This document shows positions 27,183 through 64,000 of a stretch of DNA of 64,000 bases, piece by piece. The notes below the pieces were generated by a model, which was not told where the DNA came from, made no database searches, and saw only the letters and a list, made by a program, of their open reading frames with translations. Position numbers and translations under genes: made by a program. Every line of letters begins with the position of its first letter. Position 1 is the stretch's first letter. Location of the stretch: assembly GCA_903847975.1 (NCBI GenBank), contig CAINFC010000138.1, forward strand, positions 1-64,000, written 5' to 3'. The stretch is from an uncultured Acidobacteriota bacterium (GTDB lineage: Bacteria > Acidobacteriota > UBA6911 > CAINFC01).

Positions 27183-27586
27183 ACGTTCTCTCTTTTGGTT
27201 GTTCCTTCCGGTGCGCCCGGCCCAGGGTTCTCCTGCCGGCGAGCCCCGAAAGAAAGCTTCTTTTTATATTATGAACTGCCAGGCCGGTTTTTGCCAGGGA
27301 TTTCCGAGAGCCGGCCGAGGACACGGGAAGGGTCCGGCAGGAAGCCGTGCGGGATAAGTCTCCTCCCTGCGGATCGACACCGCCGGCCCTTTTTCCTTGA
27401 TGGCCCGGCAAAAAATCCCTCTCCCCATCCGACGTGTGGTGATTTCTTCATTCTTTCTTCCTGATCTTCCCGTCTTCCTGTGAAATGAATGAGCTTACAG
27501 GAAGAAAGGAAGAGCGGGAAGAAAGGCGGAAAGGCCTGTCGCCAGGAGACGGGGACTTTTTGCCGTTTTGCCTTCCAGGCGCGATA
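27183..27586. other. Non-coding region between pseB and the receptor gene
   Basis: No gene is supported. The part near 27400-27545 is a long imperfect palindrome described separately; the part before it should hold the minus-strand promoter of the pse-type operon, but no clear box pair is seen. Confidence 0.4.
27400..27545 (+). repeat. Palindromic repeat family, copy 1
   Basis: The core CTTCCTGT...ACAGGAAG lies inside longer purine/pyrimidine arms (CTTTCTTCC... and GGAAGAAAG, with CTTCCCG and GCGGGAAG further out), so the whole can fold into a long hairpin. Nearly the same core occurs at 57418-57515, and an inverted version at 61060-61180. The left flank (AAAAAATCCCTCTCCCCATCCG) also recurs, inverted, in copy 3. 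Confidence 0.7.
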
Positions 27587-57348: not shown

Positions 57349-57417
57349 CAGCAGTCTGGCCGAAAAGCCTGCCTGCCGCACCCTCTGCCCGACCTTTCCC
57401 TTCCCCAGTATACGGAT

Positions 57418-57515
57418 GGCCTCCTTCTTTCTTCCGGACCTTCCCGTCTTCCTGTGAAATGAGGGCTTACAGGAAGAAAGGAAGAGCGGGAAGAAAGGCG
57501 AAAGGGCAGGTCGGA
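57418..57515 (+). repeat. Palindromic repeat family, copy 2
   Basis: Same orientation as copy 1 at 27400-27545 and nearly identical in the core CTTCCCGTCTTCCTGTGAAATGA...CTTACAGGAAGAAAGGAAGAGCGGGAAG (shown here broken). It can fold into a long hairpin. Confidence 0.75.
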
Positions 57516-57694
57516 AGAGACCTTATTACGAACATTTCATTGCCTGATAGCTTCGTACAAATTCGTTTTTACGAAGCTGTCCTCTCCTGACGGAGATGCA
57601 ATAAGTGGCTTGGGCTGCCCGGCCGAATTCAGGTCTTGCACCGGAATGCGCCCTTGCCGACTCGCGGTTTTTTTCAAAGAGCCAATAATTTTTC

Positions 57695-59443: not shown

Positions 59444-60886
59444 TTATGCTTTCCTGGGAACCACGAAGCCCGGCCGATACGGACGGGTGAGCAGTTCGTC
59501 GGCCTTTTTGTTGCCTTTGAATTTTTCCTTCCTGGGATCCATCTGCAGGGGCATCCCCACGGTCAGGTTTTCCTTGGCAATGTCCACTCCGTTGGCGGCC
59601 AGGTGTTCCAGCATGCGGGCGTAGGCTTCCTCCATCCCCTTTTCGCTTTTGATCCTGGCTTTGACCTCGTCCGGGCTGCACTTCTTTCCGAGGAGGTAGG
59701 ATATGTTGCCGGTGTGGCACAGGGCGCTGCTCAGGTGCCCTTCGAGCACATCGGCGTTCAGGTCGGCCACATTGCGGCTGCGGACCGCCTTGATAAAATT
59801 CTCGTAGTGGCTGGAGGTCCCTTTCCACTCCTTGATCTTCTTGCCTTCCTTGTCGAAGGCTGCGGCGGAGGTATAGCTCGGAACCGTTACGTGTCCGCCT
59901 TCGCATTCGATCACGATGCCGATGTCCGCTCCTTTGTACTTGTCCATTTCACGGACACCGCTTTTGGAGGGCAGCCCGCGGACTTCGAAAATCAGAGGGG
60001 CCGCCGGATAGTCGTGCAGGATCAGCTGGGTATTCGGGGTTTCCCCGTCGTCCGTGTAGCCGACCCGGCCTCCCAGGCTGAAAATGCGCGGGGAAAGGGC
60101 CATCTCCCCCAGGAACCAGCGGGCCACGTCCATTTCGTGGATTCCCTGGTTGCCCAGGTCGCCGTTGCCGGTATTCCAGACCCAGTGCCAGTCGTAGTGC
60201 AGCCGCTTGCGGGTCAGAGGCAGCTTGAGCGCCGGTCCGCACCAGAGATCGTAGTCGATTTCCGCCGGTACCGTCTGGGGCCCGTCCACCTTGCCGATGG
60301 TGTCCCTTCGCTTGTAGCACAGGGCGCGGGACACCTTGATCCTGCCGAGATTGCCGGCCCGTACCCAGGCCACGGCCTCCTTGATGCCGGTAACGGAGGA
60401 GCGGCTCTGGGTGCCGGCCTGCACGATTTTCTTGTGCTTGCGGGCGTACTCCACCACCCGCCGGCCTTCCGACACATTGTGGGAAATGGGCTTTTCCAGG
60501 TAAACGTCTTTCCCCGCCTGGATGGCCCAGATGGCGCCCAGGCTGTGCCAGTGGTTGGGCGTGGCGATGGAGACGGCATCCACGTTCTTGCTTTCCAGCA
60601 GCTTGCGGACGTCCGTGTAGGTTTCCAGGCTGGGATTCTTTTCCTTGAGCCGCTTGGCGGTGGCTTCCAGGATCCGGCTGTCCACGTCGCAGAGCGCCGT
60701 CAGGCGGACGCCGGGCACCGAACCCAGTCCGCTGATGTGGTCCCGGCCGCGCCCGCCGAAACCGATGACCGCAACGCGGATGTCGCTGTTGGCGCCCAGC
60801 ACCTGGGACCGGGAGCCGGTCGTCCAGACGGCCGCCGCTCCCAGGGGGGCAAATCGTAATAGATCGCGTCGAGTAATCTGGGGCAT
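59444..60886 (-). CDS. Tat-exported Gfo/Idh/MocA family oxidoreductase
   Basis: A 480-residue NAD(P)-dependent oxidoreductase with a twin-arginine signal (TRRDLLRFAPLGAAAVW), Rossmann motif AVIGFGGRGRDH at about 39-50 and the family motif YLEKP at 129-133 with Lys132 in the catalytic position. Such exported members act on sugars or carry a bound nucleotide; the class is abundant in Acidobacteriota and Planctomycetes. The C-terminus ends FVVPRKA. A truncated, internally deleted copy occurs at 63735-64000. It is convergent with the GspC-like gene. Confidence 0.92.
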   Translation of the reverse strand: MPQITRRDLLRFAPLGAAAVWTTGSRSQVLGANSDIRVAVIGFGGRGRDHISGLGSVPGVRLTALCDVDSRILEATAKRLKEKNPSLETYTDVRKLLESKNVDAVSIATPNHWHSLGAIWAIQAGKDVYLEKPISHNVSEGRRVVEYARKHKKIVQAGTQSRSSVTGIKEAVAWVRAGNLGRIKVSRALCYKRRDTIGKVDGPQTVPAEIDYDLWCGPALKLPLTRKRLHYDWHWVWNTGNGDLGNQGIHEMDVARWFLGEMALSPRIFSLGGRVGYTDDGETPNTQLILHDYPAAPLIFEVRGLPSKSGVREMDKYKGADIGIVIECEGGHVTVPSYTSAAAFDKEGKKIKEWKGTSSHYENFIKAVRSRNVADLNADVLEGHLSSALCHTGNISYLLGKKCSPDEVKARIKSEKGMEEAYARMLEHLAANGVDIAKENLTVGMPLQMDPRKEKFKGNKKADELLTRPYRPGFVVPRKA

Positions 60887-61059
60887 ACGTACTTTTCCTT
60901 CTTAAAAAATTGATAAAGGGAGGATCTTTCCAGACGAACCGTTTCCGGACCCATCCCGCTTTGACGAGTTGATTCTAAGGGGCAACCTCCGATGGCGTCA
61001 AGATCAGCGGGATGGAATTATGATAAAGCCGCCAGGCGTCCCCGTATACCGGCAACGAG

Positions 61060-61180
61060 CCATTCCTCTTTTCTCCCGCTCTTCCTTTCGTACGGTAAGC
61101 CCGGACTTTTCACAGGAAGGCAGGAAGGTCAGGAAGGAAGAATAAAGCCGTCCGGGTTTTTCGAATGGGGAGAGGGGTTT
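61060..61180 (-). repeat. Palindromic repeat family, copy 3 (inverted)
   Basis: Opposite orientation to copies 1 and 2: the complement reads with the TTCACAGGAAG core and GGAAGG arms, and is flanked by GAATGGGGAGAGGGGTTTTTTGC, the complement of the left flank of copy 1. It is more diverged than the other two. Confidence 0.6.
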
Positions 61181-61613
61181 TTTGCACCTCCATCCATAAA
61201 AAGCCTCCGGCAAGCCACGCGGCTCCGGGTCTTGCCAATCGCCGGGAGGGAATTTAGAATTGACGAAGGAATTGTGGTTAGGAAACAACTCCCTGGAAAA
61301 CCAATCTAGCGGGTCGATGGGCTACAGATGGATCCATTCCTACACCGAAGACCCCCTGGGACTATCGGCCGGCGGGAACCTGCCTCCGGCGGAATGACAC
61401 GCGCTTTGGAAAGTCAGGTCACCCAGTTTGGCATTCCGCTGGGTTACTCCGCATTCCCCACAGCGCTTCTATTTACTGCTCATCGCCCGGTGGGCCGACC
61501 GGTGCGAGGAGAGCCCGGCCTTCTCTGTCGGCAGCCCAACTCCAGCCGGGGGATTCGAAAATCTGGAGGCGGAGAATCAGAAGCAACAGCCAACTCGCCG
61601 AGATAACCTTTTC

Positions 61614-61645
61614 GGCTCCATCCCTCTCTATCGAGGGATGGAGCC
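61614..61645. repeat. Perfect 13-bp inverted repeat
   Basis: GGCTCCATCCCTC (61614-61626) and GAGGGATGGAGCC (61633-61645) are perfect complements with a 6-base loop, followed on the plus strand by CTTTTCC. It lies about 75 bases after the cytochrome gene stop and could stabilise or end that minus-strand transcript, although no U-tract follows on that strand. Confidence 0.55.
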
Positions 61646-61719
61646 TTTTCCGGATCGATTAACTTTCGCTTGCCCCGTATCGGTCGGCGGTCATGCCGCA
61701 ACCGGGGTTCGTTCCGGGG

Positions 61720-63558
61720 CTAATCGATGCTTTGATCCGGATCGAAAGCGACCGGATGGGCCGGCGCTGTTTGCAATATTCTGTTGGTCAGCGAAGAGGG
61801 CTTGGAGGTGTTCCACCAAATTCCTTGCGGGCCATACCATTCCATTAATTTCCTGGAAAGGTTGACATCGATCGGCTGATTCCATACGGTCGGAGCCGTA
61901 TCAATGCCCAACCCGAAAGCATCGGCGCGCGTTCCATGGCAGGAGACGGCACAGGCGTTCGGCATGCCGCCGCCGCTTTGGTACTGGATCGTTTTTTCCG
62001 GAGCGATCGGTTCGAAAGTATGGGAGCGGATGTCGTAAGGAGCTCCGCTGGCGGCGATTTTGGGCATATGGCATTCCACGCATCGTGAAAGGCCCAACAC
62101 ACGATCCGGACCGTAGGGATGCCGGCTGTGTTCGGAAGTCACCTGGGCAATCTTATTAACATTCGCCGCATACTTGGCAACTTCGGCCTTGGTGATGGCT
62201 GCAAAGGGACCGTGGGTGGCGTGACAAGCCAGGCAAAGTGTGTTGTCGGATACCTTGGTCGGTATTGTCAAATCGCCATCTTTGATCTGCGTGACAACCT
62301 GGTGGCGGTTTGTCCCGGCGCGATGAGGATTATGGCATTCCGTGCACACGACTTTATGGAAGGCGAAGGAGGGCTTTCCGGAGACAGCCATGTCCTCCCA
62401 CTGCTGATGATGCTGTCTTGAGTTTCTTCCATCCCCCCAAAGGCCGGGCGCTTCCTTATAATAATTGCTGAGGGGCTCAGCCTGTCCGGGATAGTATTGA
62501 AGTTTCGAATCCTCCTTATAGGGCCAGTCGTGGGTACCAGCCGGAACGGACTTGACCCGGACGTGGCATTGGGAGCAAATTTCATTCTGCTTCTCCGGTG
62601 TCAGTTTACCCGGATGGACGATCTTCGCTGGATTGCCCCCTCCCAGAACATGCAGGGAACCGGGCCCGTGGCACGCCTCGCAACCTATATTCAGAATGTC
62701 CGCATTCCCATCGCCGTCGAAATCGAAATAAGATGGGTCTTCCGGATAGTAAAGAGCCGCAGGAAAAGGTCGGTAGAGCCACTCGCCCGATGCCGTCTTT
62801 GCCAGCGTGCGAATACCGGTCGTGTGGCAGCCGATACAGCTTTTGGACTGGGTCGCCGCATTGGTGGCGATTTTGGCAGCGGTCACCGTCGAGTCGTATT
62901 TGGGAGCAAAAGTCGTCGGATCATACCAGTTGTTCGGGTTATAGAGCACATAGGCATTGGTCGCTTCGTTATATTGAACCGGAGACGTATAGGAGTCCTG
63001 GGAAAGCGAACCGTCCGCCAGCGGCACCCTTACCGCGTACCGCTGTTTCCAGTCGCCCGTACCGCCGTGGGTAAAGAGAACCGGCATCTTCAGGGTGCCG
63101 ATCGTCACGTAGTAGGTATCCTTCTCCAAAGCAAGGATGGGAGCATTCGGCTTATACGGGTCGAAGACGGACTTGATCCGATTAAAATCAAGACCCTGGG
63201 CGAAATCGTCGATTCCGTTCCGGTCGTAGTCGTTCATGACCCCTTTACCGTTTTGAAGGCTATAGGCGGACATGGGTCTGCGGTATGCCAAAGCGTGTTT
63301 GGTTTCCCGCCAGGAGGCGGCTTCTTTATGACAGGCGATACAAATTTCAGAGCCGAGGTAAACACCCCGCTGTAAATCGGCCTGTGTGTAATAGGTGCCC
63401 AGCATGCGGCTGATTTTGCCGGAAGACAGAAGCTGTTTAACTTCCGCTTCCAGCGGCTTATCATGAGAGGAGGAAATCTTGATTTGGTTGTTGTCCGCCC
63501 GGCCGGTCCATATGGCCAAGCCCAGACAGGCAAAAACGAACGTAGCTTTCATTTTCAT
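61720..63558 (-). CDS. Exported multihaem cytochrome c
   Basis: A 612-residue periplasmic or outer-surface cytochrome with seven canonical CXXCH motifs (CIACH, CIGCH, CEACH, CSQCH, CTECH, CLACH, CVECH) and an eighth of the form CAVSCH (CX3CH). The first lies near residue 75. A signal peptide starts at ATG 63558 (or 63552). Multihaem cytochromes pass electrons in anaerobic respiration, often to extracellular or nitrogen/sulfur acceptors; the arrangement does not match a family I can name, though cytochrome c-554-like and octahaem proteins share such motifs. Cytochrome c maturation could use the TlpA-CcdA protein at the left end. Confidence 0.88.
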   Translation of the reverse strand: MKMKATFVFACLGLAIWTGRADNNQIKISSSHDKPLEAEVKQLLSSGKISRMLGTYYTQADLQRGVYLGSEICIACHKEAASWRETKHALAYRRPMSAYSLQNGKGVMNDYDRNGIDDFAQGLDFNRIKSVFDPYKPNAPILALEKDTYYVTIGTLKMPVLFTHGGTGDWKQRYAVRVPLADGSLSQDSYTSPVQYNEATNAYVLYNPNNWYDPTTFAPKYDSTVTAAKIATNAATQSKSCIGCHTTGIRTLAKTASGEWLYRPFPAALYYPEDPSYFDFDGDGNADILNIGCEACHGPGSLHVLGGGNPAKIVHPGKLTPEKQNEICSQCHVRVKSVPAGTHDWPYKEDSKLQYYPGQAEPLSNYYKEAPGLWGDGRNSRQHHQQWEDMAVSGKPSFAFHKVVCTECHNPHRAGTNRHQVVTQIKDGDLTIPTKVSDNTLCLACHATHGPFAAITKAEVAKYAANVNKIAQVTSEHSRHPYGPDRVLGLSRCVECHMPKIAASGAPYDIRSHTFEPIAPEKTIQYQSGGGMPNACAVSCHGTRADAFGLGIDTAPTVWNQPIDVNLSRKLMEWYGPQGIWWNTSKPSSLTNRILQTAPAHPVAFDPDQSID

Positions 63559-63734
63559 AAAGTGCCCCGAGTTAAGAAAAAGTTGAGAACGATCATTCCA
63601 TCGCAGCAAAGTCAATCTGTCACATGCGGCGGTCCCCGTTTTGGCTATGCCGTGCCTACAATACTTGGCTTTGCAATCGCAAAAGGAAATCCATCGGGAA
63701 ACTTTATCGCCGGCAATGCCGGTGTGTCAAGGTC

Positions 63735-64000
63735 GACAGCTCGTCGGCCTTTTGGTTACCTTTGAATTTTCTCTTCCTGGGATCCGTCTGCAGGGGCATG
63801 CCCACGGTCGGGTTTTCTCTGGCATGTCCACTCCGTTGGCGGTCAGGTGTTCCAGCATGCGGGCGTAGGATTCCTCCATCCCATTTTCGCTTTTAATCCT
63901 GTGGTAGACCTCGTCCGGGCAGCACTTCTTTCCGAGAAGGCAGGAGATGTTGCCGGTGCGAGGCAGGGCGCGGGACACCTTGATCTTGCCGAGCTTACCG
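63735..64000 (-). pseudogene. Truncated and internally deleted copy of the Gfo/Idh/MocA gene
   Basis: Bases 63735-63968 align with 59491-59725 of the Gfo/Idh gene at high identity. At the shared CAGGGCGC/GGCAGGGCGC word the copy then jumps to the equivalent of 60322-60350, losing about 600 bases of the gene. The product-like frame reads NISCLLGKKCCPDEV...SYARMLEHL and then frameshifts. The copy lacks the last ~15 codons and runs beyond the window, so its far end is not visible. Confidence 0.85.

Follow-up and report, generated by a model that had tools for sequence, protein, structure and literature searches.

The window analysed here comprises positions 1–64,000 of contig C138 (116,339 bases in total), which belongs to an 8.13-Mb draft genome of 326 contigs that is 99% complete. 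Near its right-hand end lies an intact gene on the minus strand (59444–60886), recognized by its 480-aa open reading frame and Pfam matches. The protein contains the N-terminal Rossmann NAD(P)-binding domain PF01408 (E = 2.1e-23; 83.7 bits against a cut-off of 24) and the C-terminal alpha/beta domain PF19051 (E = 3.5e-18; 66.5 bits against a cut-off of 23.3), that is, both domains of a Gfo/Idh/MocA oxidoreductase. Its N-terminal MPQITRRDLLRF resembles a Tat-type signal and may be one. This family is strongly expanded in the genome, as a search with the intact protein returned 77 matches (E ≤ 0.001), a count that includes three pieces of the broken copy described below and some split matches. 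Further along is a gene for a 631-aa multihaem cytochrome c on the minus strand (61720–63615; Pfam Cytochrome_C7, Paired_CXXCH_1 and Cytochrome_C554). Just past the window, a family search identified a gene for a DUF4127 protein (contig C138 64505–66148), the only one in the genome; downstream of it are a class III aminotransferase gene and then a gene whose CobW match falls slightly short of Pfam's cut-off.

Between the cytochrome and DUF4127 genes, a broken copy of the oxidoreductase gene starts at 63737 and runs past the window end at 64000. Alignment within the window and self-comparison of contig C138:58000–77000 linked it to the intact locus through three collinear blocks in direct orientation. 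Block 1 (63737–63971, minus strand) corresponds to 59492–59727 (88.6% identity, E = 1e-82), covers codons ~387–465 and contains one 1-bp deletion. Block 2 (63964–64178, minus strand; the window holds 63964–64000 only) corresponds to 60320–60535 (88.0%, E = 2e-73; codons ~118–189), and block 3 (64185–64494) is non-coding upstream DNA corresponding to 60977–61285 (84.5%, E = 1e-94). At the 3′ end of the gene, DNA homology ends at 63737 and the protein-level match reaches residue 471 of 480, the copy being without the last ~9 to 16 codons. The duplicated segment spans ~1.8 kb, of which ~0.3 kb is upstream non-coding DNA; the copy now measures 758 bp. Because the closest intact paralogue in the genome shares only 52% identity with the intact protein, the broken copy must descend from the intact gene, or both from one parent, with no other paralogue found that would serve as its source.

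An earlier note on this DNA had described a Gfo/Idh/MocA gene copy joined at a short repeated word. The jump is real and falls on CAGGGCGC at 63964–63971 (deletion junction 1), which is common to both parental positions (starting at 59720 and at 60320 of the intact locus). The shared word and the jump of ~600 bases stand as the note gave them; the repeat in the intact gene is, more exactly, 11 bp long (GCACAGGGCGC), with plus-strand copies at 59717–59727 and 60317–60327. These lie exactly 600 bp apart, so that deletion 1 is in frame. A single CAGGGCGC is left at the junction, followed by the sequence of the right-hand position, and 8 of the 11 repeat bases are kept. Immediately left of the 8-bp word, four of the five bases do not match the intact left side, so the deletion may have arisen in a homology of 8 bp and not 11. 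If two endpoints are drawn at random within the gene, with a minimum spacing of 100 bp, the chance that they fall in a shared word of at least 8 bp is 3.6e-4, and that of at least 11 bp is 2.7e-5. An 11-bp repeat is by itself ordinary in such a gene (longest repeated word of at least 11 bp in 259 of 500 codon shuffles), and the intact gene has just one other repeated word of 11 bp besides GCACAGGGCGC.

The note's account of one deletion holds for junction 1 and has to be extended by a second event. Deletion 2 removed ~441 bp (~60536–60976 of the intact locus; ~64178–64185 in the copy), taking the first ~117 codons, start codon included, and 90 bp of upstream DNA. Inspection by eye revealed no clear shared word at this junction. 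Thus, endpoints at two direct repeats with one word left behind are seen at junction 1 only.

Substitutions tell the two genes apart. With the junction word left out, blocks 1 and 2 provide 440 aligned coding sites, of which 49 differ between the copy and the intact gene (13, 19 and 17 at codon positions 1, 2 and 3, respectively). Changes affect 41 of 145 codons (12 synonymous, 28 non-synonymous and 1 stop; neutral expectation 27%, 70% and 3%), with dN of 0.103 and dS of 0.154. Judged by 85 homologous proteins, including three paralogues from the same genome, the commoner state is that of the intact protein at 26 of the 29 differing residues (stop included) and that of the copy at 3. The non-coding repeat in block 3, described below, was judged by 28 other copies, skipping columns with fewer than 14 of them: 15 changes were assigned to the intact side and 9 to that of the copy; among the other columns, both sequences depart from the consensus in 4, 6 are unresolved and one is a gap. 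Both sides have changed in non-coding DNA and the copy carries nearly all amino-acid changes, which is the pattern expected of a living and a dead gene. The substitutions are thus consistent with a copy that decays neutrally and an original that is conserved.

The copy also contains two 1-bp deletions, one of which hits EKP, a motif important in the Gfo/Idh/MocA family, in its Lys codon. A complete frame with both domains and EKP is therefore missing: the start is deleted, the EKP lysine is frameshifted, and a Pfam search of the 90-aa open end gave no match (E ≤ 0.001). With disabling changes and lost purifying selection, the copy has the attributes of a pseudogene. It is hardly credible that the copy still functions, whether through a short protein or through a regulatory transcript. 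Such a role would be in keeping with the frame preserved by the 600-bp deletion, but not with the loss of the start codon, the two frameshifts and the stop, an open end lacking any Pfam match, or neutral substitution.

We also considered whether the assembly had joined two distant loci at repeated words. The draft is fragmented into 326 contigs, several of which terminate within or close to the palindromic repeat that the segment carries; among the 41 repeat matches listed, several are at contig ends (scoring covered 40 of the 271 first-look candidates). However, divergence of ~12% along the whole copy, together with the decay pattern, is unlike the product of a misjoin, and both junctions lie inside one homologous collinear series. 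An artefact is therefore very improbable.

The layout of the locus is less simple than its content. The second copy does not begin where the first ends; instead, 2,451 bp (61286–63736), including the cytochrome gene, separate the two, and because of this 2.45-kb stretch a plain tandem duplication is insufficient as the sole explanation. Alignment beyond 64000, by which the earlier note had hoped to find the other end of the duplication, placed the end of the copy at contig C138 position 64494, directly preceding GGAGAG, a ribosome-binding-like stretch of the DUF4127 gene. At the four duplication ends, where traces of adjacent genes or words were sought, nothing turned up besides the homology itself and two inverted words (one of 8 bases, one of 6), which we read as chance, and Rfam gave no match in L004 1000–8000 (E ≤ 1).

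One refinement, compatible with a duplication followed by decay, is that the gene changed places: the broken copy would sit at the original locus, divergently oriented to the DUF4127 gene, with the intact gene as the younger copy in a new place. We regard this as possible, albeit with clearly less than even confidence. Homology that extends exactly to the GGAGAG stretch points in this direction, as does the copy-side repeat, which is somewhat nearer the family consensus than the intact-side one (180.6 versus 161.8 bits; 13 versus 18 consensus differences in 125 well-conserved columns). By contrast, the ancestral order was seen in no relative, and the DUF4127 protein was matched in none of the 37 other class genomes and, at E ≤ 1e-8, in none of the 89 loci tested, many of them short. 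No DUF4127 remnant was detected next to the intact gene (best tblastn E = 0.38).

The nearest among 40 genomes compared (own included) belong to the same class, none being closer. A search for the copy with a 763-bp query recovered it in 0 of 37 other class genomes (up to 14 first-look candidates scored per genome); in four of the 37, nothing but short matches appeared, which spanned 40 to 138 bases of the query and all lay in the coding part. Tblastn with eight neighbouring proteins (DUF4127, cytochrome, PilN and others) against the 89 loci (L055–L143; 9 from relatives and 80 from genome contigs) produced a single match at E ≤ 1e-8, a class III aminotransferase with 28% identity at L102. These searches leave both loci, that of the copy and that of the intact gene, as candidates for the original place of the gene. 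Among the titles listed for bacterial short-direct-repeat deletions, dispersed repeats with Acidobacteria and Gfo/Idh/MocA duplications, none concerns this locus, which is no claim that the case is missing from the literature.

The duplicated upstream region carries a palindromic repeat (~61020–61213, by profile match), which is a degraded copy belonging to a larger family. Members are ~155–200 bp long, with ends like GAT..CG.AAAAAGT / ACTTTTT.CG..ATC and a long inner hairpin; others lie at 27391–27571 and 57396–57531 in the window and at 64231–64421 and 72772–72920 of contig C138. A 31-base core has 144 matches in the genome (73 in forward and 71 in reverse orientation, with at most 3 mismatches), compared with 0 for a reversed-pattern control, and was found in 0 of 37 class relatives. 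Compared with shuffled sequences, the better-kept member at 27391–27571 folds much more stably (z = −5.3), and that at 61020–61213 no more so (z = −0.3). The alignment comprised 30 members, both from this locus included. Many copies, terminal inverted ends and a palindromic core make the repeat MITE/REP-like, and the family is probably intergenic, judging from the few members near this locus. REP/BIME and MITE-like elements are palindromic intergenic repeats, and the present one resembles them in being short, palindromic and high-copy. It differs in being a passenger of the duplication, likened to them by sequence. We had considered the repeat as a driver of the duplication and dropped the idea, since no duplication end and no deletion falls at it; for that reason we treat it as a passenger. 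A more elaborate scenario, in which the gene relocated together with the repeat, its former site next to the DUF4127 gene fell into decay, and members of this repeat family assisted in moving DNA within the genome, is improbable.

We conclude that the copy is very probably an ordinary pseudogene, formed by segmental duplication plus deletion at a short direct repeat and followed by decay. This is the history that the earlier note had proposed, and the three blocks, junction 1 and the substitution pattern bear it out. A segment of ~1.8 kb, comprising the gene minus its last codons and the upstream non-coding region with its already old palindromic repeat, would have been duplicated directly within the same neighbourhood. 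One copy would then have stayed under selection, while the other dropped 600 bp between two words of 8 to 11 bp, most likely by strand slippage or annealing during replication, and a further ~441 bp with the start codon. The broken copy would subsequently have gathered its frameshifts, stop and neutral substitutions. The homology, the junctions, the decay pattern and the presence of the repeat in the segment when it was duplicated are directly visible; the slippage pathway, the order of the two deletions and that of the cytochrome stretch are what we infer from them. Counting against this explanation are the lack of a clear word at junction 2, the mismatched bases immediately left of the junction-1 word, the 3 of 29 residues at which the copy has the commoner state, and the unexplained 2.45-kb spacer.

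In bacteria, a junction of this kind is usually attributed to strands that slip or anneal at short direct repeats. In E. coli, slippage of this type is known as RecA-independent deletion between short direct repeats. Junction 1 is similar in that the stretch between two short words was removed and one word was left; deletion 2 differs in having no clear word, and the resemblance is one of sequence. A Ku family search found no match in the 99% complete assembly (among 14 control genomes, only Bacillus subtilis matched), so Ku-dependent end joining is unlikely, albeit that the absence of Ku proves no pathway. The term 'microhomology-mediated', used in the note, is apt as a description of junction 1, more than as the name of an enzyme pathway.

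In having an intact homologous neighbour, frameshifts, a stop, deletions and neutral substitutions, the copy resembles other bacterial pseudogenes derived from segmental duplicates, with no essential difference. Here, with the original at a distance of just 4 kb, the events can be read: an ordinary and unsurprising course of events has left an unusually legible record. The most reusable result is that the palindromic repeat predates the duplication, as the duplicated segment shows. The locus as a whole neatly illustrates how members are gained and lost in a large paralogous family.
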